The position numbers and the translations under genes are program-made. The notes under the pieces are model-generated. The model was not told where the DNA came from. It did not search any database and saw only the letters and a program-made list of their open reading frames with translations. Below are positions 6,309 through 29,370 of a stretch of 64,000 bases of DNA, piece after piece (position 1 is the stretch's first letter; every line of letters begins with the position of its first letter). Source of the stretch: Agelas oroides (Eukaryota > Porifera > Demospongiae > Agelasida > Agelasidae); assembly GCA_949130485.1 (NCBI GenBank), contig OX422183.1, positions 11,816,543 through 11,880,542 of the forward strand, written 5' to 3'.

Positions 6309-7980
6309 CCTTCTGGTTACTTCACGGTGTAGTGTTTCAAGATGTCTATATTAGCTGTGAGGACTATGCATGACAAACCAAGACAAATGGCTCTATTGTG
6401 TGGTAGTTCTATTTACTGCATCCGGACGACAATTTCTCTGAACCCTCACGTGTAAAAAATCTTGTGACAGACTGTAGAGAGTGACAAACCTTGTGATCTG
6501 GTAATACACTGGTGAAGCATCAACTTGCCAGCTAACTGCATTGCTTGCTTACGCTCGCCCCACAATGTTCTACATTCCCTTAGTTTTTTTTTTTGTTTGT
6601 TTTTGACGAGTGGCCTGGGTACGAAGGCTAGTATGGACTCGCTCACGCTCGCCCCAATTATCTGTCGTACATATTCCGTATGTCTGCTTAGACTGTAATT
6701 TAACGCAACCGCGCGCGGACAGTAAGTAACATTTTCGCTCTAGACTGCTTTTCAGCGCAGCACGAGCAGTGTGGGCAAGAACGGCGAGGAGAGACGCATG
6801 GGAATAACTGGCGCTGGAGCGTGAACGTTTACTGTACGAGGGCTGCAAGGTGTGAAGACGAACCTGGCTACTTACAGAACGCAGAAGGCGGCTGATGGTT
6901 GAATAGCTGACGGTGCCTTGTATTTACAATGCGTAGCGACTTTTCCACGCTTCTCCTATTCGTACTGTGCATGACAAGCCAAGCTGCAGTGTATTCAAAG
7001 TCGATGCATGCAGGTCAGACATATTCCCTGCAGACATGCATTACCAGTATGCTGTAACCTGGTAATACAGCTGGTGAAGCCTCAGTTATACCAGTGTAAA
7101 TGTAGAACATTGTTGTTCGAGCCTAAGCGATCGAGCAATGCAAAGCAGCATCGCTTGGCTAACTGTACGAAAAATCCACCGTTGAACTCGCTAAGTGTGG
7201 GGCTCGCTCAGGGTCGCCCCAATTAATGAACCAAGCAACAAAGTGCACTTTTATTACAAATAAGTGCTTGTACTGTAGTCATGATATAACAAGAGGTTTG
7301 GGGATGCATGCTTGGACTTACCTGAACAATTACAAAACTGTCAGTAATGTTTCAAGTGATAGTGTTACGGTTGCACTTACTGAAAGAAGAAAACAGTAAA
7401 AATTAAAAGAGATGTAGGGTGGTGTCCAAAAAGTGCACAAACAAGGGAGGATATAAAAGTAAAGGTAAATATACAAAGCCCTATCCTCAAATATTCGCTC
7501 TGTTGTGAAAAGATGTAGGGATGGATGAGAAAAAGGATTTGAATGATACCCAGTTTTTAAAAATTGGTCTACCATTCTCCAGTTACATATCAAAATTTGT
7601 AGCTGCCGTTAAGGTCTGCAGTGATTAAATACAAAGTTAGATAATGCACCTATCAATAGTATACCCCCCTCCCAAATCGGGTTTTAGTGGGGCAAGGTGG
7701 GGAATTGACTAATTAAAATGACAATGGCCCCTTTAGTGGGGCAGACCCTGTAATCAAATCCCCTTGAAAAAGATGGCAGATTACTGCGTATTTGACACAT
7801 GCATGCAGTTTAACTATGCAGTACAAGGTAATCAGTCAACCCCCCATATAATCCTGATCAACTGCCCAATAGGGGGGTAGTGGGGCACAACATTGTTAGG
7901 CGCGTAACTCGGTAGCGGAAGCACGTATACAGCAGCTCTTAGAGACTGTCCATCAGTGGGCTGGGTCTCTTCATATAGAG
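6309..7980. other. Gene-free stretch with TE debris
   Basis: Nothing recognisable as a gene. Around 7410-7520 is a diverged copy of the GATGTAGGG repeat family, including an AAAAAGTGCACAAACAAGG segment shared with copies near 34780 and 54410. From 7655 to 7890 are C-run and G-run blocks (ACCCCCC and GGGGGGTA) that could pair as a loose hairpin. Confidence 0.4.
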
Positions 7981-12060: not shown

Positions 12061-12557
12061 GATCCTATTAAAATACTCCGCAAATATTCGTATACTTTAA
12101 ATGAAATACATCACCGGATTTACGCGGACGTGCATGTGCACCGATTTTCTATGACGTATTGAACGTCACCACAACGAATGACGTTTGTACCTGGCCGATC
12201 TTCGGTCGTATGGCACGCCACACATAACAAAATTATGGGCGCGCAATTTATGCAATACTTAAGCAAAAGCCGTATAACTTCACCACAAATACGCTAAAAG
12301 CATATTTAAGCGCCCAGGCTTCCTCTTTGAGTGGCTTTGTGATCAGCAAGATTCATATAAGTGGCCAAAAGCTACGCGAAAGACAGCTAAACGCAAAAGT
12401 GTGCGAGCGCCATTTTTCGTATTCTTCTTTCTTTTTTTGACCACAATGTTCAACAACGATATCTCGCAAACGGTTTAAGTACTCACCGTCATTTTAGCAC
12501 GAAACTGATGCTTCAGAGAGACTTCAGAAAGATCCTTCGCCTTCCCTGGAGAGACGT

Positions 12558-14067
12558 ATGAATGAGCTCCTCCTTTCTCTAAAGAAAGCTGGAGCCTTGC
12601 GCCCCAACCTGTACCACCGCCTCAGGTCGTCTGCAGGGAAAACCCCCCTCCTCTATGGTCTTCCAAAAATCCATAAACCAAATGTACCCCTCAGACCCAT
12701 TGTCTCCTTCATCAATTCTCCAACCTACCACCTCTCAAAACATCTGGTCGATATCCTGTCCCCTCTGGTTGGAAACTCTGAGTCAAATGTCAAGAACTCC
12801 ACTCAGTTTGCCACCTTCATTTCAAATATATCCCTTGGACAGGAGGTTTTGGTGTCCTTTGACGTCACCTCCTTGTTCACTAATGTCCCAGTGGGCCTGG
12901 CTTGCCAAGTAGCAGAGGACAGACTAATTGCGGACACCTCCCTGGGAGACCGCACCGCCCTCTCCCCGCCCCAGGTTGTCACACTCCTCCAGTTCTGCCT
13001 CAATGCTATCTACTTGGCATACCAAGGACAATTTTACCAACAGTCCTTCGGCACAGCGATGGGATCTCCAGTGTCTGTCACAGTGGCGAATCTTGTCATG
13101 GAGGATGTAGAGCAGAGAGCCCTGCATGTCTACGTACTCACACCCACCACCCTTCTGGAAGAGATATGTGGATGACACCTGCACTGCTCTTCCTCCTGAT
13201 GAGGTCCACTCCTTTCATGCCCACCTCAACACAATCGAACCATCAATTCAGTTCACCTATGAGATGGAGGAAAATGGCATTCTGCCATTCCTGGACACAG
13301 AGATCACACATTATACAGAGGGATCCCTATCCACAAAAGTCTATAGGAAGCCAACCCATACTGACAAATATCTTGACTTTCAGTCTCACCACCCCCTGGC
13401 ACACAAGGTGGCAGTGGTCCGGACGTTGTACCATAGGGCGGAGCGTCTCTGCACTTTTGCTGATGACAAGACTGAGGAGGAACAACATGTCAGAGAGGCC
13501 CTGACAAACAATGGATACCCTGACCGGATCCTCACCCTTCCCCACCCAACACACCAACAGCAGGCCAACACACTCCCGGAGGCTACCGTGGTCATCCCGT
13601 ATGTGAACCGCACGTATGAGGCGGTCAGAAGAGTGCTGGCTCCCCTCGGCATCAGGACCTATTTCAAACTGCACAAAACATTCAAGAATCTTCTGACTCG
13701 AGTAAAAGACCCTGTTGCACCAGAGGAGAAGGCAGGGGTGGTGTACAGGGTCCCTTGTGGTGATTGCCCGGCCACTTATGTAGGCCAGACGGGAAGGACT
13801 CTGATGCACCGCCTCAAGGAACACAAACGGGCCCTGACAACAGCCAACTCCATGACCTCTGCCCTTGCTGAACATGCTATGGACACTGGCCATGACATTG
13901 ATTGGTCAGATGCCCAAATCATCGATGCCAGCTCCCTCCTCCAACAGCGATGCACCCTGGAGAGTTGGCACATCCGCAGACAACCACAACCCTTGAACAG
14001 AGAGAGAGGCATGTTACCGACAGTCTACGATCAGCTGATCACACAGACCAGCCATCTTTCATCATAG
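12558..14067 (+). pseudogene. Penelope-like RT and GIY-YIG polyprotein, frameshifted
   Basis: Reverse transcriptase with a C-terminal GIY-YIG nuclease. The first frame (12558-13175) shows GLPKIHKPNVPLRPI, motif A SFDVTSLFTNVPV and motif B GTAMGSPVSVTVANL. The second frame (from about 13130) shows FWKRYVDDTC (motif C, YVDD catalytic pair), then LPFLDTEI and KVYRKPTHTDKYL. The endonuclease near 13740-13830 reads VVYRVPCGDCPATYVGQTGR followed by R..EH, the GIY-YIG pattern. One frame change at about 13130-13140 separates motif B from motif C. Apart from this and the missing N-terminus the frame is open, so the insertion looks fairly young. The stop at 14065-14067 leaves about 340 bp of 3' UTR. 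Confidence 0.85.
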
Positions 14068-18999: not shown

Positions 19000-19983
19000 A
19001 TGTCAGCCGAACCCGGTAGAAAGAAGTCGTATTTTGCTGATCTGAGATGGAGAATAGTGTACCAACGCATAGCGATGAACCTTCCTTTCTATAAAATCGC
19101 CCGCAACTTGAACATCGCTGCCAGTACAGCTAACCGGATTTATCAGCTGTTTGAGCAAACTGGAGGAGTAGATCCTGTGCAAACGCTAGAGAGGCATGAA
19201 ATCCGAGCAGTTGACATGCACACTGAACTACATGTTATCGGTTTTGTGATTGAAAATCCATCTGTCTACCTCAGTGAAGTGTGCTACAACGTACGTGATA
19301 TTACTGGGGAAGCAGTATCCCCTTCCACTGTTTGCAGGCTACTTAAGTGATATGGCATTTCACGAAAAAAGATAAGGCAGGTTGCCCTCCAGAGAAGTGA
19401 CAGCTTAAGAGGAGCCTTTATGGCTCAGACGTTCTTATATCAACGTGATATGTTTGTCTGGATAGATGAAACTGGTTCAGCAACCAGGGATACAATCCGA
19501 AAGTATGGATATTCTCTCCGTGGAATGAGGGCTGAGTACCACCGACTGTTAACAAGAGGCAAGAGAGTCAATGCCATCACAGCAATGTCTTCCACAGGGA
19601 TAATAGCACTGGACCTGACAACAGACACTGTAAATGGTGACAAGTTTTTCGATTATCTCAGAGCATCATTAATCCCAAACATGATGGCATTTAATGGGAT
19701 GAACCCACGGTCCATAGTTATAATGGACAACTGCTCAGTGCACCATGTTGAAGAAGTGACAGAGTTACTAAGGCAGGCTGGAATTGTAGTACTTTTTCTC
19801 CCTCCATACAGCCCTGATCTCAACCCATTAGAGGAAGCATTTAGTTATATTAAGGGCTATTTAAGAAAACACGATGAACTGTTCCAATCAATCCCTTCCC
19901 CTATAGACTTGATCAAGACGGCATTTGACAGCATTACAGAAGAACATTGTCAGGCATGGATTTCACATTCAGGATATTTGTAA
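19000..19983 (+). pseudogene. Tc1/mariner (IS630-like) DD34E transposase, one stop
   Basis: Cut-and-paste transposase of 327 codons interrupted by a single TGA at codon 117 (19348-19350), with the same frame on both sides. The N-terminal part has paired HTH-like segments (IARNLNIAASTANRIYQLF near 29-47). The catalytic core keeps all three acids: D156 in WIDETG, D243 in IVIMDNCSVHH, and E278 in PPYSPDLNPLEEAF, with 34 residues between the last two. The stop lies in LLK-stop-YGISRKKIR; a CGA-to-TGA CpG transition would explain it. Otherwise intact, so the copy was lost recently. It sits 120 bp inside the left TIR, as expected. Confidence 0.9.
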
Positions 19984-22569: not shown

Positions 22570-23446
22570 GGATTAGGCTTAGCCTCGTTCCCAGGCGCGG
22601 AGGAGGAGGAGAAAGAGCGCCTGGTACACACTTGTTGCGCATGCGCGTAATTATAGCAAAGGCCACGTGGTAGAATTAGGGGTGTGTACTAATATGACGA
22701 TCAACGGTTCACGTGAATAGCATAAACCGTCATAAAAAATACCTCAGCTTTTGTTCTTAGGACGCTATAAACATCGCTCTGCCTAGTTTAATACTGTCAG
22801 ATACAAAGAGAAATGTCTGTAGGCAGTGGTAGGAATCGACTTACCGGACATTGCCAGAAATTTGAATAGCGCGGCGGTCACGGCGTTATTTCCGTAGCGT
22901 ACGGAGTAATAATTAAGTTTACGTTGTACCGTATGCGAATTTCTATCTGACGCACCCTTTTCGAACTTAGTCTCTGGTGAGTGTGTACACTTTAACCCTT
23001 TGTTCACGTGGTGGTCTTTGTTTTAAAAAGCTCAGTGTCAACAATGACATTGCAGACAGAGGTGAGAGGAAGTGTGCTAGATGGTGAGTTAACTTGCTCC
23101 TACCTAAGTGTTAAGCCATCTGTGTGTCACCACGCGACGCTACTACAATTATGCTAGAACTGGTTACGCATTAAGGATGGTTCTCTGTGTAGCGCTTCGT
23201 TCAGGCTGCACCATTGCTTTTGTCGCGCTTTTAGTACAAGAACGACAATAGCTGGACCTTGGATCCAGGCTACAAGAGGTCTAGTAGTTTAGTAGTTACT
23301 GATACTGTAGTTTATAAACTTGTTATACTTTGCGTGTGTTTTGAAATTATGCAGGGATATAATGGTATCTACTAGTATGTGAATGTGTGTTCAACCAGGG
23401 TGTGTGTTACATGGAGCTAGTGCTTGAAATAGTTCGGTTGATTAAG

Positions 23447-25736
23447 TTATTCATTCAACTTCAGGTTTCTTTTCTTCTTTGTGTGCTCTGCCCTTCCACG
23501 TTTAGGTTGAAAACTATCAGGAAGGTCACTGTCGTTCATTTTCCTTTTCAGTGGTCGACCCTGGGGAGCTTTTTGTGATCCCCTTGTAATACCCTTTCTT
23601 CGGCACTGTATTCCTGTGGGTTGAACAGATATTTTGCGTGTTCCACCATGTGGTGGAGGTATGCGTGTGTGTGTAGTGTGTAGGAATGTAGCTAGCTTAA
23701 GTGTTGCAGACACTGTTGGTTCTGTCTTTTCAACAATCTCAAAGTACTTGGTAAGAAACTTTGTTATGCCTAATGCATAATTTGTATCTCTGGTATGAAG
23801 TCTGGACTTCACATCTGTTGAGAATCTATCATGTAGTGTTGATGCCTGATCAATAACTTTCTCCATTTTATCAATTTCATCTATGAGTAGATCCAAGTTT
23901 GCAGCACCTTCATCGTAGTCTGTTTGTGATAGTTTATCTGACTCAATAGTACTTTGCTCATCATTATTGGACGTACTGTTATGTGTATTTATACTGACAT
24001 CAGGTTCACCATCATGCAGACCAGAGTAAAATGAAAGAGGACCTGCAGCTTTTCCAACAGCAGTTTGGGCAAATAGAAAGCGGCCATCTGCATTGAAGGT
24101 TGGTATCATATTTAGACCATTGATCTTATATTTTCTAGCTACTGCTGCTTGGTGGTGGCAAGGTTCTCCAGTAGGCTGACCATTCCATCCCAGACTACAT
24201 GTGCACATTCATTCTCCACATCAACAACATACTCGACTTCAGGGTGTAGTTGGCTTTTCACAATGTAGAGTCCTTTACCATCTGGGGAGGGTTTAACATC
24301 ATCATCTTTTATTTTCTCTGTTCCAAGTCCTTTGAATCGTAGAGCAATATACCTGTCCAGTCTGTTGTGTGCAACTGCTAGTAAACGGGCTTGATAGTAC
24401 ATTTCAAAGGTGACAGTAAGGAACTCAAACACTTGAATCAAATTGTAGGCTTTTATTCTTTGAAAGACGATGTCCTTGAGAATGCGAATGCCTGTCTCTG
24501 AATAGTTGTTGGTGTGGTTTCCCCGCATGACAGAACCAGCTCGGTATGCAATGCTCCATTCTGCTTTTCGTGCCCAGAAAACATCAACATACTTAGCAAA
24601 TTGCTTGTAGATAATCACTAGAGGATGTCCCTTGAAGAATTTGTATTCATATTCAAGGTCTTCAGGTGAGTGTGCATTCTAAATAAAATCATTAGTGTTT
24701 GCCTATGCTCTTTGTCTATTTTATGTTTTGAGTCACATAGCCATCGCCATACACTTTGAAGAACATGAAAGATACACAAAAATAGTTCTGCTTGAGGCCA
24801 TGTTAGCTTTAACCCCTCCCTTTCAGGATTGCTATCATCTGTGATAATAGTTTGAGGACCAGTGTCTCTCCCTCTTTGTCCAAATCCACACTCTGGTAGT
24901 ATTTCCTTTAGAGTGGACATAGCATTCTCGATTGTGACAGTGCTTTCTCCCGATGTTACTACAACTCCCAGAGGCAGGCCACCTGCTGCACTAGATGTAG
25001 ATAGTACAAATACAGCATTATTATAATCGTCTAATGAGGAAGAAGAGTCAATGTAAACTACTTCACTAGCTTGCTGCACAAGGGTATGTACTCTTGACAT
25101 TAATGGAGTGCATGTGGCCAAAATTAATGGATCCTCAGAACCATCTGGGTGCTTAGTGTAACGTTTGATCACTGCTCGTCCACCATCTGTAGAATACTGA
25201 TCATTGTATTCCCTAACAACTTGCTCTAACTGTTCATACATTTCCTTTCCATCTTTAACTCCTAAATTTTCCTTTCTCCATTTGCTAAACAAATTGTATA
25301 CATCCTTGCACTTGGGATTCAGACTTCGGTCAGCCAGTATGCATGGTGTTTCTTGTGACAGCATGAAGTTAGTTTCATACTCTAAATGAGCAGTTGCAGC
25401 AGTGTGTCCAAGTCTGAAAAGATTAAAATATTTTGTTTGTACATCCTCAGAGATAGGCCTGAATCGTAATGCATCTGCTGCATTAATTGGGTGATTGTGT
25501 TTATTAAATAGGGTTACTACTGTTCCAAAGGAACCACAGGTTGTGGATGGCAGCACTGAGATGTTCATTTTAGCAGGACAGTTGGTGTGCTTGATTGAGT
25601 GTTCTCTAACAACTGTTTTTAGAACTCTGTTGCTTTTTTGGTGCTTCCCGGTCTGTCTCTGTTTGTGATGGCAATGGAGGAAGTACTTAGTGCTCGCATG
25701 CTTCCCCTTTAGTGACTTTTTCCTACCAAAGACCAT
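23447..25736 (-). pseudogene. MULE transposase with SWIM zinc finger, frameshifted
   Basis: Three overlapping frames form one DDE transposase. 25736-24618 has an N-terminal C/H cluster (HCHHKQ, NCPAKM, KHNHPI), the first catalytic D in VVYIDSSSS and the second in TIITDDSNPE, followed by LFLCIFHVLQSVWRWL (the MULE C-x2-H block). 24618-24139 has NHTNNYSETGIRILKD, which carries the third catalytic acid. 24208-23447 has the SWIM finger CTCSLGWNGQPTGEPCHHQ, then a linker and a basic tail (KRGRAEHTKKKRNLK). One-base shifts separate the parts near 24665 and 24190, in addition to the one near 25720. Premature stops are otherwise absent. Few lesions suggest a young copy or consensus errors in the assembly. 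Confidence 0.82.
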
Positions 25737-27229
25737 TGTCTGCTTTGTTTTTTATTATATCCCTTTACCCACTCTTTTACTTCTCTGTCACGGTGTATGT
25801 TAACTTTGAATTCAGCTTCAAAGCTTCCTGAAGTATCGACTCTTTTACAAACACAATTTTTGTATTCATAATCAGAAGGTAAGAGCTGAATTATACTACA
25901 GCTTTTCCATGTTTCAAAGTCTGAGTCACTACCTGAGCCTTCAGCTGGATCATTTTCTGAATCTGACCAACTGAAAGTTTTGTGACCGCTTCCTTCATGG
26001 TACACTGTACTTTCAGCAGATTTGCAGTCTTTGTGAATAGTTGTGCTTTCAGTTGGTGTATAGTTTTCAACTGTTTCAAAATCTGAATCATTACCTGATT
26101 TTTTAGCTGAATCATTTTCTGAATCTGGGCAGCAAAAATTGTCGTGACTACTCGTTTCAGTGCATTTGTCAGCAGATGTGCAATCTTCATGGATAGTTGT
26201 GCTTTCAGTTTGTGTATAGTTTTCAGGATTTTCTGTAGGGGAAGCATTTTGTTTACATGTTTTCTGTGAATGGTTCTTAAAGTCGTTCACAGAACCTTGA
26301 GCTGGAGTGGTACTTTTAGCGAAAGAATCAGAAAACATGTGTACATCAATCTGTTTGTTGATTGTCCAGTGGATCAGAATTCGACGTAGATAATCTGAGT
26401 ATGTTGTTGCGTTTTGAACCAATAGTATTTGTTGAGGTATTGCTTCACTATTGGGCCAAGCCATGCTGTTTCGAGATATCAAAGCTGCCATGAATACACT
26501 GACAACTCCACATACATTTGAGCATGTCTGTATTGGGTAAAAGAGTTTGCATTTATCCCTGCAAGTGTGTGTATAGTGTATAGCTCTACTAGATGGATCA
26601 TGTAGCAGTTCACATCTTATGTTAGGGCACATAATTGTGAGGCCAGACATTGTTTGAATTTGTTGTAGTAGGGATACTAACCGGTCTATGTTTGATGGGA
26701 ATTGCCATCCTAAAGAGTCCCCGTAGTACCATACAGGGGAGTTCACATGAAAAAAGAGAAGAGTCCAATGGCATCCACCATTACCACCTTCAAATGCAAT
26801 CCTAGTATCACCATTTTTCTCCTTTCCAACATTGAGAATGTCCTGCACTATATCCTGCCCCAAGCGTACCCTTTCTAACTTCACCAAAAGATCTTGAGTA
26901 AACATGACTGTTGGGTGTTGTGCCACCATACAGAGAGTACTGCTGGCTTTTGAATTAATTAGGTTAGCCATGTACACCACACTTACATCTGAGAGCCATC
27001 GAGTGCCTACTAGGTTACGAGCACATGTAATTTGGTCAGTAGTACCACTGTGACAATTTCCTTCCCAGATGGAAGAAAAAAAACTTGCAGTATTTGAATC
27101 GGAGATGCACATATCGGGATATGGGACCCTAAATTGTGTGTTCAGCCATTTTTTTTCTTCAAGAGTCCTCTTGAGAGCAGTGTGATGGTTGTACGATGCA
27201 AGTAAATCCTTGAGTCCACTGGTATCCAT
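25709..27229 (-). CDS. Ulp1/C48-type cysteine protease part of MULE gene
   Basis: A 506-codon frame. A SUMO/ubiquitin-like protease fold is visible with the triad H154 (GGCHWTLLFFH), D171 (WYYGDSLGW), Q234 and C240 (PIQTCSNVCGVVS). After about residue 300 comes an acidic Ser/Thr-rich linker with two near-copies of a unit containing SDSENDPAEGSGSDSDFET and TPTESTTIHKDC. The frame ends in EWVKGYNKKQSRQWSLVGKS, which overlaps and shifts by one base into the transposase frame at about 25715-25736, so the protease and transposase were probably one polypeptide. Ulp1 domains fused to MULE transposases are known from plant Kaonashi elements; here the protease is N-terminal. Start chosen at 27229, just downstream of a long noncoding 5' region. 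It presumably acts on SUMO-like conjugates, but the substrate is unknown. Confidence 0.8.
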   Translation of the reverse strand: MDTSGLKDLLASYNHHTALKRTLEEKKWLNTQFRVPYPDMCISDSNTASFFSSIWEGNCHSGTTDQITCARNLVGTRWLSDVSVVYMANLINSKASSTLCMVAQHPTVMFTQDLLVKLERVRLGQDIVQDILNVGKEKNGDTRIAFEGGNGGCHWTLLFFHVNSPVWYYGDSLGWQFPSNIDRLVSLLQQIQTMSGLTIMCPNIRCELLHDPSSRAIHYTHTCRDKCKLFYPIQTCSNVCGVVSVFMAALISRNSMAWPNSEAIPQQILLVQNATTYSDYLRRILIHWTINKQIDVHMFSDSFAKSTTPAQGSVNDFKNHSQKTCKQNASPTENPENYTQTESTTIHEDCTSADKCTETSSHDNFCCPDSENDSAKKSGNDSDFETVENYTPTESTTIHKDCKSAESTVYHEGSGHKTFSWSDSENDPAEGSGSDSDFETWKSCSIIQLLPSDYEYKNCVCKRVDTSGSFEAEFKVNIHRDREVKEWVKGYNKKQSRQWSLVGKSH

Positions 27230-28111
27230 AAGTCCAAATTGAAATTTGATGTAATGATGTTGACTTGGAGCTTTTTCAGCTTTCTATATTAAGGTACTTA
27301 AGGCTGAACGACATTCGCTTTCGAAAGGAATGGTTCTGATTGAATCACTCATTACTGTTGTTTGACATTCAGAGTAACTCACTACTTCATACGGGTAGAA
27401 GGAAAATACTTTATTCTTGGGTGGTACTGCTTTCTTTAATCTCAATTTTGTACTTCCTCCGCCAACCTGTAATTAAAGGATTCAAATTTACCACTCTTAA
27501 TTTGAAGATCCATTCAAGTCTAATTCCACATTAATTACAAAGTTGGGCTCTGCCTGCATGAACGCAGCACTAACCTTCCTCCCAGACTACTCCCCTTTCC
27601 TCTTCCCCATGCACTGATGAGAAGTTATTTTCATCCCAAGGTGAAGAGGAGAACCTAAGAATGAGACTACCAAAATTCTAATCTTACCATCCAGTTGGTA
27701 GCTAGCAACGGTGTATATAAGTATTGTACATGGATGGTTATTCACCACACTTTCTATGAACTTTGAGTGATGGATCTGGGAATAAGATAATTGCTCTCCT
27801 TACCATTGGAATGTGCTTGTTGGAGCTGTGTATCCACTCACGGATATACTTTGATGCTATACTTGATCTACAGTGAAAGAATTGGATAATTTAAGTTTGC
27901 TAGGCTTATGCCAAAGTAGCTAAAATGTGCTGTACCTTCTGTCTCTTTCAGGTTGATGGTGCGAGACTACTGCTGCTAACGGAAGCAGGACATAGAAAAG
28001 GACCAACACCGCTGCTAGCTAGTGGAAACAAGTTCAAGATATTGACAGGAAGATGAGATACTGATTGTCCAACTTATTATATTATGAATTCAATGATTGT
28101 ATTGTATATAC

Positions 28112-28279
28112 CTTTGATGATGTAGCTCCAGACTCACACGGAGTTGATTGTGTGGTGAAACAGCCAGCTGAATACAACCCCCCATAACAAATGTGTGTTG
28201 AAAAACACAAGGGGGAAGTGAGGATCAAGCACAGCAACCAGAACCGCTTGTTAGCCACGAGTAACTGACTTCTAGCCAT
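28112..28279 (-). CDS. Possible signal-peptide exon inside MULE
   Basis: An ATG at 28279 opens 56 codons ending exactly at a GTATAT donor (AAG/GTATAT, 28112/28111). Residues 1-27 form a good secretory signal: MARSQLLVANKR, then FWLLCLILTSPLCF. The following segment is Cys-containing (HICYGGLYSAGCFTTQSTPC). No partner exon is secure: a downstream minus-strand stretch near 27890-27740 stays open but is unremarkable. It lies between the right TIR and the Ulp1 gene and has no place in known MULE proteins, so it may be a captured host exon. Chance is possible. Confidence 0.35.
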
Positions 28280-29370
28280 GACTGAATTTCCCGCTACAAT
28301 GATCGCGCAGTGCGCATGTGTGCAACATTTACTAACAGCAACCGGGTTAATTCTAGTATGCAAATTTTGGGGAAAAGGGGTTAACTGTGTAATCTTCCAG
28401 AGACTAAGTTCGAAAAAGGTGCGTCAGATTATCCATAATTGTATATGCTAGCGTACATTTTGTACCTATTTTGTACCGATTTGGCAAATTCTGTGAACAA
28501 AACCTGCAAAAACTTTACGACCAGTCGGACAGAGAGCATCAAAAATAAGTGAATTATATCGTTAACCAATCAAAAATGAACTGCAAAAGTGTATATTTTT
28601 ATTTCAGAAACCTATTTTTTCACACTTCAATGTGTGAAAATACGGTAGAAATACTATCACGAATGGCAAATTCTGTGACCTTCAGGAGCCAGCACTGTAG
28701 ATATCTGTGGCTAGTAGAGAGAAAGCAGAAGGTGAATATATCGTTAACAACACATTTACGGACAAGGTAAGCTCGTTACTAAAGTTCGAGTTTGAACCGC
28801 CATAGGCTCCCGTAGTAAAACATAAAGTACGTGTAACGGAAATGTAACGGACGTTTCCAAAGAGAGCGAAGTCCGTGTCGTTGCATTTCTGGCAATGAAT
28901 GGTGGATAACCGCATAAAGGTACGTTTCCTCAGTAAGCGCACTCATTGGAGGCAATCTGTTCTTTCTTGAGCTTTATCTCGAGGTTCCTAGCTACCACAA
29001 GGCCTAGAACAGCGCGATATGAAACTCACTCGAACAGAACACCAACTGGCACATCAATGCTGCGACGTCACTAGTATACGTACGTACACGTACGAAGACG
29101 GTCGCCACGGAATTCCGTGGCGATTAAGCGCATGCGCAAACAGTGTGTACCAGGCGCTCTTTCTCCTCCCCCTCCTCCGCGCCTGTGAACGAGGCTAGGA
29201 TTAGGCTAAGCAATGTCACTAATATCATAGTCTTTCGACAGTCATAGTCAGTCAACTCTGATTTTAGTCGCCTAAATCTATGGTGGTGTCAGAAGAATCT
29301 GGGGGGAAGGTGGTTCCGCCAGTATCAGAGAGTCTATGTAGGGAAGGCGCCGACGCGCAATATATGCAAT

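Follow-up and report, generated by a model that had tools for sequence, protein, structure and literature searches.

The genome of the sponge Agelas oroides contains, in the 64,000-nucleotide window analyzed here (assembly GCA_949130485.1, contig OX422183.1, positions 11,816,543 to 11,880,542 of the forward strand), a stretch at window positions 22570-29207 that is very probably made up of three nested mobile elements, with a decayed transposon of the Mutator type (Mutator-like element, MULE) at the core. This confidence applies to the nest and to the MULE identity; the function of the protease-like domain that the MULE encodes is weighed separately. The first-pass annotation had read 22580-29197 as one complete MULE with an Ulp1 protease. 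The inverted ends on which that reading was built are present at 22580 and 29197 (pair I1, 53 nt, 92%; pair I3, 32 nt, 94%), as is the 10-bp sequence GGATTAGGCT on both sides of them, but ends and duplication belong to an outer repeat, here called MITE1 (miniature inverted-repeat transposable element 1), which lies two nesting levels outside the coding unit. Each of the three layers is bounded by comparison with independent copies, and the MULE also by a structurally complete relative on contig 19 that has its own 9-bp duplication. The layers and the evidence for each are as follows:

22570..22579, no strand: GGATTAGGCT, left copy, target duplication of MITE1 and not of the MULE (direct sequence and other copies)
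22580..22848, plus strand: MITE1, left half (halves joined in other copies)
22849..22934, plus strand: MITE2, left part (repeat copies, free-standing loci L062-L069, junctions)
22926..22934, plus strand: GTACCGTAT, 9-bp MULE target within MITE2, left copy (exact duplication of the same 9-mer at L100/L101)
22935..28429, coding strand minus: the MULE proper (ends shared with its family; contig-19 relative)
22935..22976, plus strand: MULE left end, GCGAATTTCTATCTGACGCACCCTTTTCGAACTTAGTCTCTG (42 nt identical at 10 ends from 7 fetched loci)
28397..28429, minus strand: MULE right end (pair I2, 33 nt, 97% complementary to 22945-22977; compared with L081), its outermost 10 bp and the right target copy missing
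28430..28897, plus strand: MITE2, right part (90-96% identity to 8 fetched copies)
28898..29197, plus strand: MITE1, right half (halves joined in other copies)
29198..29207, no strand: GGATTAGGCT, right copy, MITE1 duplication (direct sequence)

The contig-19 relative, fetched with its flanks as L081, fixes the inner boundary. Its ends form a perfect inverted pair of 22 bp (78-99 and 6439-6460 of the fetched stretch); CTACCGGAT, an exact 9-bp duplication, flanks it on both sides, and it measures 6383 bp in total. The window MULE starts at 22935, since the same motif that begins there bounds L081 as the perfect inverted pair. The ends of the family read GCGAATTTYTATCTGACGCAC. A query from 22940 found its first 37-38 nt identical at 39 other scored places, and the fetched examples have GCGAATTTCTATCTGACGCACCCTTTTCGAACTTAGTCTCTG in common while their flanks differ. 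The right side of the window MULE stops at about 28429, ten bases before the outer end of the motif. Set against an uninterrupted MITE2, which reads GTACCGTATTTGCAATTATCC, the window has lost the right copy of the target and a few bases of MITE2. Contrary to the first-pass annotation, the window copy is thus not complete.

The end motif is widespread. Its 19-bp form occurs at 152 places in the genome (79 forward and 73 reverse), against 0 and 0 for a reversed-pattern control. Among the 100 of these 152 sites that were listed, at least 30 adjacent inverted pairs were found, 22 of them spaced 1.55-2.76 kb apart and 8 spaced 4.8-10.3 kb. Open frames of 100 aa were absent from the short pairs L070 and L071, and open frames of 120 aa from the 5.7-kb pair L080. 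Exact 9-bp duplications flank 7 of 10 tested pairs, with a match of 8 of 9 at one more and no match at two; beyond those ten, the duplications of L081 and L118 are exact. At the level of the family, then, the elements show the inverted ends and the 8-11 bp target duplications that characterize MULEs. A 7.0-kb inverted pair with the end motif lies on contig 3 (4019311-4026338) within an exact 9-bp duplication, ACCCGGGTT, and the transposase search gave no match there. On viral contigs, 24 stretches fit a pattern and none codes for a relative. Some of the results weigh against the proposed delimitation: the window MULE's own duplication is not readable, its right target copy being lost, L071 and L080 have no matching duplication, and that of L070 matches at 8 of 9 positions.

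The outer layer, 22580-22848 together with 28898-29197, is an independent repeat. MITE1 is a high-copy element of about 585 bp with inverted ends TAGCCTCGTTC and duplications of 9-10 bp. When its first 121 bases served as query, 590 first-look candidates came up; the 40 that were scored, among them the window, all reach at least 93% identity. Thirty loci were fetched, that is, 29 besides the window's own. The first-pass annotation had proposed searching for the terminal 70 bp as inverted pairs 5-8 kb apart; what recurs instead is a short repeat, with both ends found at 28 of the 29 other loci; the copy at L009 measures 404 bp and the other 27 span 568-617 bp. At the remaining locus, L020, the MITE1 copy is itself interrupted and its right end lies beyond the fetched stretch; at L005 the scripted end call fell a few bases short. 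All 28 copies cross the point of interruption in the window without an insert, most commonly as CCGGA/AATGG; in the junction alignment L030 is without 11 columns there, and the right half of L009 is shortened further in. Exact duplications of 9-10 bp were counted by eye at 22 of the 28 copies, L021 and L031 sharing one flank. The left junction of 21 bases has a single occurrence in the genome. The L009 copy sits in GTGCGTCAGATC, which by eye resembles the termini of MULE-family elements; a search there for the fuller end motif was negative.

The middle layer, 22849-22934 together with 28430-28897, is a second independent repeat. MITE2 is about 580 bp long and has 13-bp inverted ends, CATTGCCAGAAAT. 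A query from 22850 returned 254 first-look candidates, 40 of which were scored; besides the window, the matches cover the first ~85 bases at 85-90%. At all eight fetched loci (L062-L069) the two parts of MITE2 lie within a few bases of each other, and none of these loci matches MITE1 sequence. A target duplication was absent from the six copies with both junctions readable, and the window MITE2 likewise lies in MITE1 without one. Its best-scoring copies diverge from the consensus by 0.3-2.4%, the window copy by 1.3%. We take the repeat to be reminiscent of the ISL2EU/Spy type.

These layers suggest an order of events. MITE1 would have inserted first, producing the 10-bp duplication; MITE2 would then have entered MITE1 without a duplication, and the MULE would have entered MITE2 at GTACCGTAT. 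A later small deletion would have removed the outer right end of the MULE together with the right target copy. It is hardly credible that the stretch is instead one 6.6-kb element at 22580-29197, an autonomous parent from which the MITEs arose by internal deletion. Its intact ends and 10-bp duplication, and the fact that MITE1 amounts to its outer parts joined, would fit such a parent; yet MITE2 is free of MITE1 at all eight fetched loci, the end motif of the MULE is found between unrelated flanks with 9-bp duplications of its own, and the contig-19 relative stops at the inner boundary. The delimitation of 22580-29197 as one element was rejected on the inner boundaries of the contig-19 relative, the joined MITE1 halves and the free-standing MITE2.

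Insertion of the MULE family is strongly site-specific. In 35 of 40 flanks, each read toward the element, the middle of the 9-bp target is the trinucleotide C-[CG]-G; the sample is partly dependent, as it frequently includes both ends of one element and L072 and L073 have a flank in common. Taken singly, C at position 4 and G at position 6 each occur in 38 of the 40. The background rate of C-[CG]-G in the window is 0.0098, and none of 26 MITE1 left flanks, used as a control, has it. The target pattern is roughly palindromic, N-W-M-C-S-G-K-W-N, and the left flank in the window, GTACCGTAT, conforms to it. Such a preference would be consistent with a 9-bp staggered cut centered on C-[CG]-G. From its transposase domain, ends and duplications, the family would move by DDE cut-and-paste, the transposase recognizing GCGAATTTYTATCTGACGCAC and probably also mobilizing the gene-less elements with the same ends.

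The coding remains of the window MULE lie on the minus strand, as the first-pass annotation had stated; the single coding unit that it described is spread over four open frames, preceded by a short start segment:

27284..27352, minus strand: start of the coding remains, with ATG at 27352, resembling the start of the contig-19 protein and closing with an in-frame stop
25709..27283, minus strand: open frame, N-terminal Ulp1-like protease (H172, D189, Q252, C258) and acidic linker
24618..25751, minus strand: open frame, zinc-finger-like region (by eye) and MULE transposase (PF10551)
24139..24678, minus strand: open frame, next part of the transposase with the NNYSE block (comparison with the contig-19 protein)
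23447..24208, minus strand: open frame, SWIM-like CxC...CxH (by eye) and basic C-terminus (comparison with the contig-19 protein)

L081 encodes the equivalent regions, protease-like, transposase and SWIM-like, in a single 1190-aa frame from ATG, which bears out the placement of the protease at the N-terminus in frame with the transposase. Measured against this protein, the window copy has one premature stop in frame, and its reading frame is broken at three points, near 25.75, 24.68 and 24.2 kb; to call these few lesions was fair, and a continuous protein is no longer possible from this copy. Introns in place of the three frame breaks were considered and rejected, the matching protein pieces abutting or overlapping. 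Identity between the window and the contig-19 protein is 57-58% in the transposase core, 41-52% further on and 29-30% in the protease. As the first-pass annotation had anticipated, better-preserved relatives exist elsewhere in the genome.

The transposase identification holds. PF10551 (MULE) matches frame 24618-25751 at 27.7 bits, just over the curated cut-off of 27.6, and matches four relatives (L081, L037, L041, L039) at 18.6-27.2 bits, all under the cut-off. The blocks YIDSSSS, ITDDS, CxxH and NNYxE are present by eye in the window and in its relatives; they may represent the catalytic D, D and E residues and the C..H motif. A putative SWIM finger is visible by eye as a CxC...CxH motif at the start of frame 23447-24208, and PF04434 (SWIM) falls under its cut-off in three relatives (E 0.0024, 0.091 and 0.21). 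Neither a Pfam SWIM nor a C48 match was found in the four window frames at E up to 1. Of the two domains whose absence from profile searches would, by the first-pass annotation, refute its reading, MULE was recovered and C48 was not recovered at threshold.

The residues of the proposed C48 protease triad are likewise present. The positions given earlier, H154, D171 and C240, were counted from the first Met, which is residue 19 of frame 25709-27283, and correspond there to H172, D189 and C258. They are accompanied by Q252, six residues ahead of the cysteine. H, D, Q and C stand in Ulp1 order and are invariant among four aligned sequences, which represent three lineages and share 28-46% identity with the window. 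The domain is whole or partial in the contig-19-type copies L033, L035, L036, L038/L045, L051/L053 and L118, and the L056/L116 copies, a lineage of their own, match that of the window at 46-50% identity. A pattern built on these residues fits the window, contig-19 and L056 domains; shuffling each of them 200,000 times produced it in 1, 2 and 3 cases. Among 1654 open segments compared, the only fits are these MULE proteases and six C48 proteins of the genome. Spacing in the MULE proteases is 17 for H-D and 6 for Q-C, compared with 15-18 and 6 in those six proteins. These features point to a domain that is Ulp1-like, with C48 membership unproven; most likely it would be a cysteine protease of Ulp1-like type whose active site is formed by H, D, Q and C.

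A considerable body of results weighs against this kinship. The H-D-Q-C pattern was set after both groups had been inspected, so its figures overstate the match, and the D-Q spacing is 58-63 in the MULE proteases vs 35-46 in the six C48 proteins. PF02902 (C48) gives no match to the window and contig-19 proteases and reaches 0.044 in one of the four alignment members; it is outscored by an implausible family, Ble-like_N, at 0.023 in two of the four. A single-sequence search of the PDB at E up to 1 retrieved no protease, and the best PDB profile match, yeast Ulp1 (1euv, E 0.28), covers positions 71-155, ahead of the active site. Profile alignment by hhalign against one C48 protein of the genome covers 22 columns around the cysteine, and against the six C48 proteins 30 columns, neither of which proves membership; under another setting the score of 18.4 against the six lies within that of shuffles (up to 20.1). 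The AlphaFold model of the domain is unusable, with a predicted local distance difference test (pLDDT) score of 32.8. An NCBIfam search, too, gave no proof of C48. In the relatives of contigs 3 and 1 (L041, L039, L115) proline-rich sequence is found, and no protease match was detectable in them.

Several other loci have sequence resembling deconjugating enzymes. L114 (contig 8:5711600-5715600, minus strand, upstream of L037) contains exon-like pieces of a ubiquitin-specific protease (USP), six in number, of which PF00443 matches two (E 6.6e-6 and 1.9e-7) and, at 0.1, a third. They are followed by Ulp1-like NHWAMLV and YYDSL pieces, recognized by eye and giving no Pfam match, and then by a proline-rich frame that apparently enters a MULE transposase 47% identical to that of the window. 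The locus is possibly one USP, Ulp1 and MULE gene, or a set of chance neighbors. Five places share an equal C48 score: contigs 1:27936041 (L107), 9:5119678, 13:9005155, 22:966552 and 22:6679912. L107 combines C48 and PHD domains with a sub-threshold Tf2-1-like SH3 match and, from these domains, looks like a Ginger1-type protein. L113 (contig 2:8031300-8038500) has the MULE end motif near its left edge, a weak C48 match at 2:8035639 (8.7e-4) and, further on, an integrase-like 439-aa frame on the minus strand (by eye); it represents another nest or a different element.

As to what the domain does, we favor tag removal over self-processing and over the absence of a catalytic role. An Ulp1-like protease may free the transposase, or host factors of silencing or repair, of SUMO or a similar tag, a proposal whose chances we put at about even; the fusion keeps the protease together with the transposase. 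It is somewhat unlikely that the protease-like domain is catalytically irrelevant, mere baggage or a binding domain only. Such a domain might well diverge faster than the transposase core, as this one does between window and contig 19 (29-30% vs 57-58% identity), and fail to reach the C48 model, but none of the four presumed catalytic positions varies among the three lineages, and the ratio of nonsynonymous to synonymous substitution rates (dN/dS) for the region is 0.39 between window and contig 19, with dS saturated. The values for the contig-19-type copies against L081, 0.23-0.93 by region, are little informative on selection in the protease, since few differences separate the sequences and breaks or stops interrupt the copies.

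We regard it as unlikely that the N-terminal domain is instead a cysteine protease that cleaves its own fused transposase protein, with SUMO not among its targets. In favor of this role we count the in-frame fusion, the acidic linker between protease and transposase, and the fact that in other mobile elements related proteases process proteins of the element itself. In plants, however, the Ulp1 domain of a MULE is often encoded separately from the transposase and even in reverse orientation (PMC2528002), an arrangement that does not suit self-processing as the general role. Broader still, and distinctly doubtful, is the idea that a MULE lineage with site-specific targeting (palindromic 9-bp site with a CCG/CGG center) carries varied ubiquitin- or SUMO-deconjugating modules on its 5' side, diverged Ulp1-like ones in the window and contig-19 clades and possibly USP plus Ulp1-like ones upstream of the contig-8 relative; such a lineage might repeatedly recruit these enzymes to pass host control at CpG-bearing sites.

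Two further pieces of mobile elements lie elsewhere in the window. Positions 19351-19980 hold part of a DDE_3 transposase (2e-29), presumably Tc1/mariner or IS630-like, and 12498-14064 a piece of reverse transcriptase (RVT_1 2.9e-4, under the cut-off) that is Penelope-like by eye.

Comparison with known systems places the family among elements already described. The first-pass annotation had suspected that an animal Ulp1-MULE might be under-described. Ulp1 encoded by Mutator elements of hydra and lancelet is, however, already in print (PMC2836005); since that paper states both cases, the animal Ulp1-MULE is known as a kind and the present family is a further member. The likeness is that of a Mutator element with an Ulp1 domain in an animal genome, compared by description only. 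The plant KAONASHI and KIU elements share the combination of MULE and Ulp1 domain; they are MULEs without terminal inverted repeats and with a separate Ulp1 gene, whereas the window family has short inverted ends and an N-terminal in-frame fusion, and so shows neither of the features that define them. In the plant elements the Ulp1 domain is one of several genes, and in KI-MULEs it lies in reverse orientation (PMC13317346, PMC2528002). For KIU-carrying Vandals a link with hypomethylation of related elements has been described, and what Ulp1 itself does there is called unknown (PMC13317346).

Among other known elements, the Phantom group of animal MULEs resembles the window family in duplication length and perhaps in a SWIM-type finger, some of its members having a SWIM or FLYWCH finger and the duplications measuring 8-10 bp (PMC6446971). 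The words Ulp1, protease and peptidase are absent from the main text of that paper and from that of an arthropod survey (PMC13359780). Muta1 of the mosquito likewise has duplications of similar length (8-9 bp) and hundreds of non-autonomous relatives, comparable to the elements here that have the ends and would lack the gene; it is reported without a sequence preference (PMC5225508), in contrast to the strong site specificity of the window family. MuTAnT is a MULE family with a defined target, as this one is, but aims at TA microsatellites (PMC4486113) and not at a palindromic 9-bp C-[CG]-G site. Ginger1 shares the fusion of a transposase to an Ulp1 protease, with a PHD domain in addition; its transposase is of the Gypsy-integrase type and its protease is C-terminal, and its authors proposed roles for Ulp1 in repair after transposition (PMC2836005).

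Taken together, the analysis corrects a reading that three nested elements make tempting, namely that they are one. It yields a well-bounded MULE family with a protease-transposase fusion and a sharply defined insertion site, together with relatives that have the same ends and lack the gene. The target preference of this family illustrates how sequence-specific a MULE can be. If the domain is an active Ulp1-like protease, the role of Ulp1 domains in Mutator transposons would become testable here.

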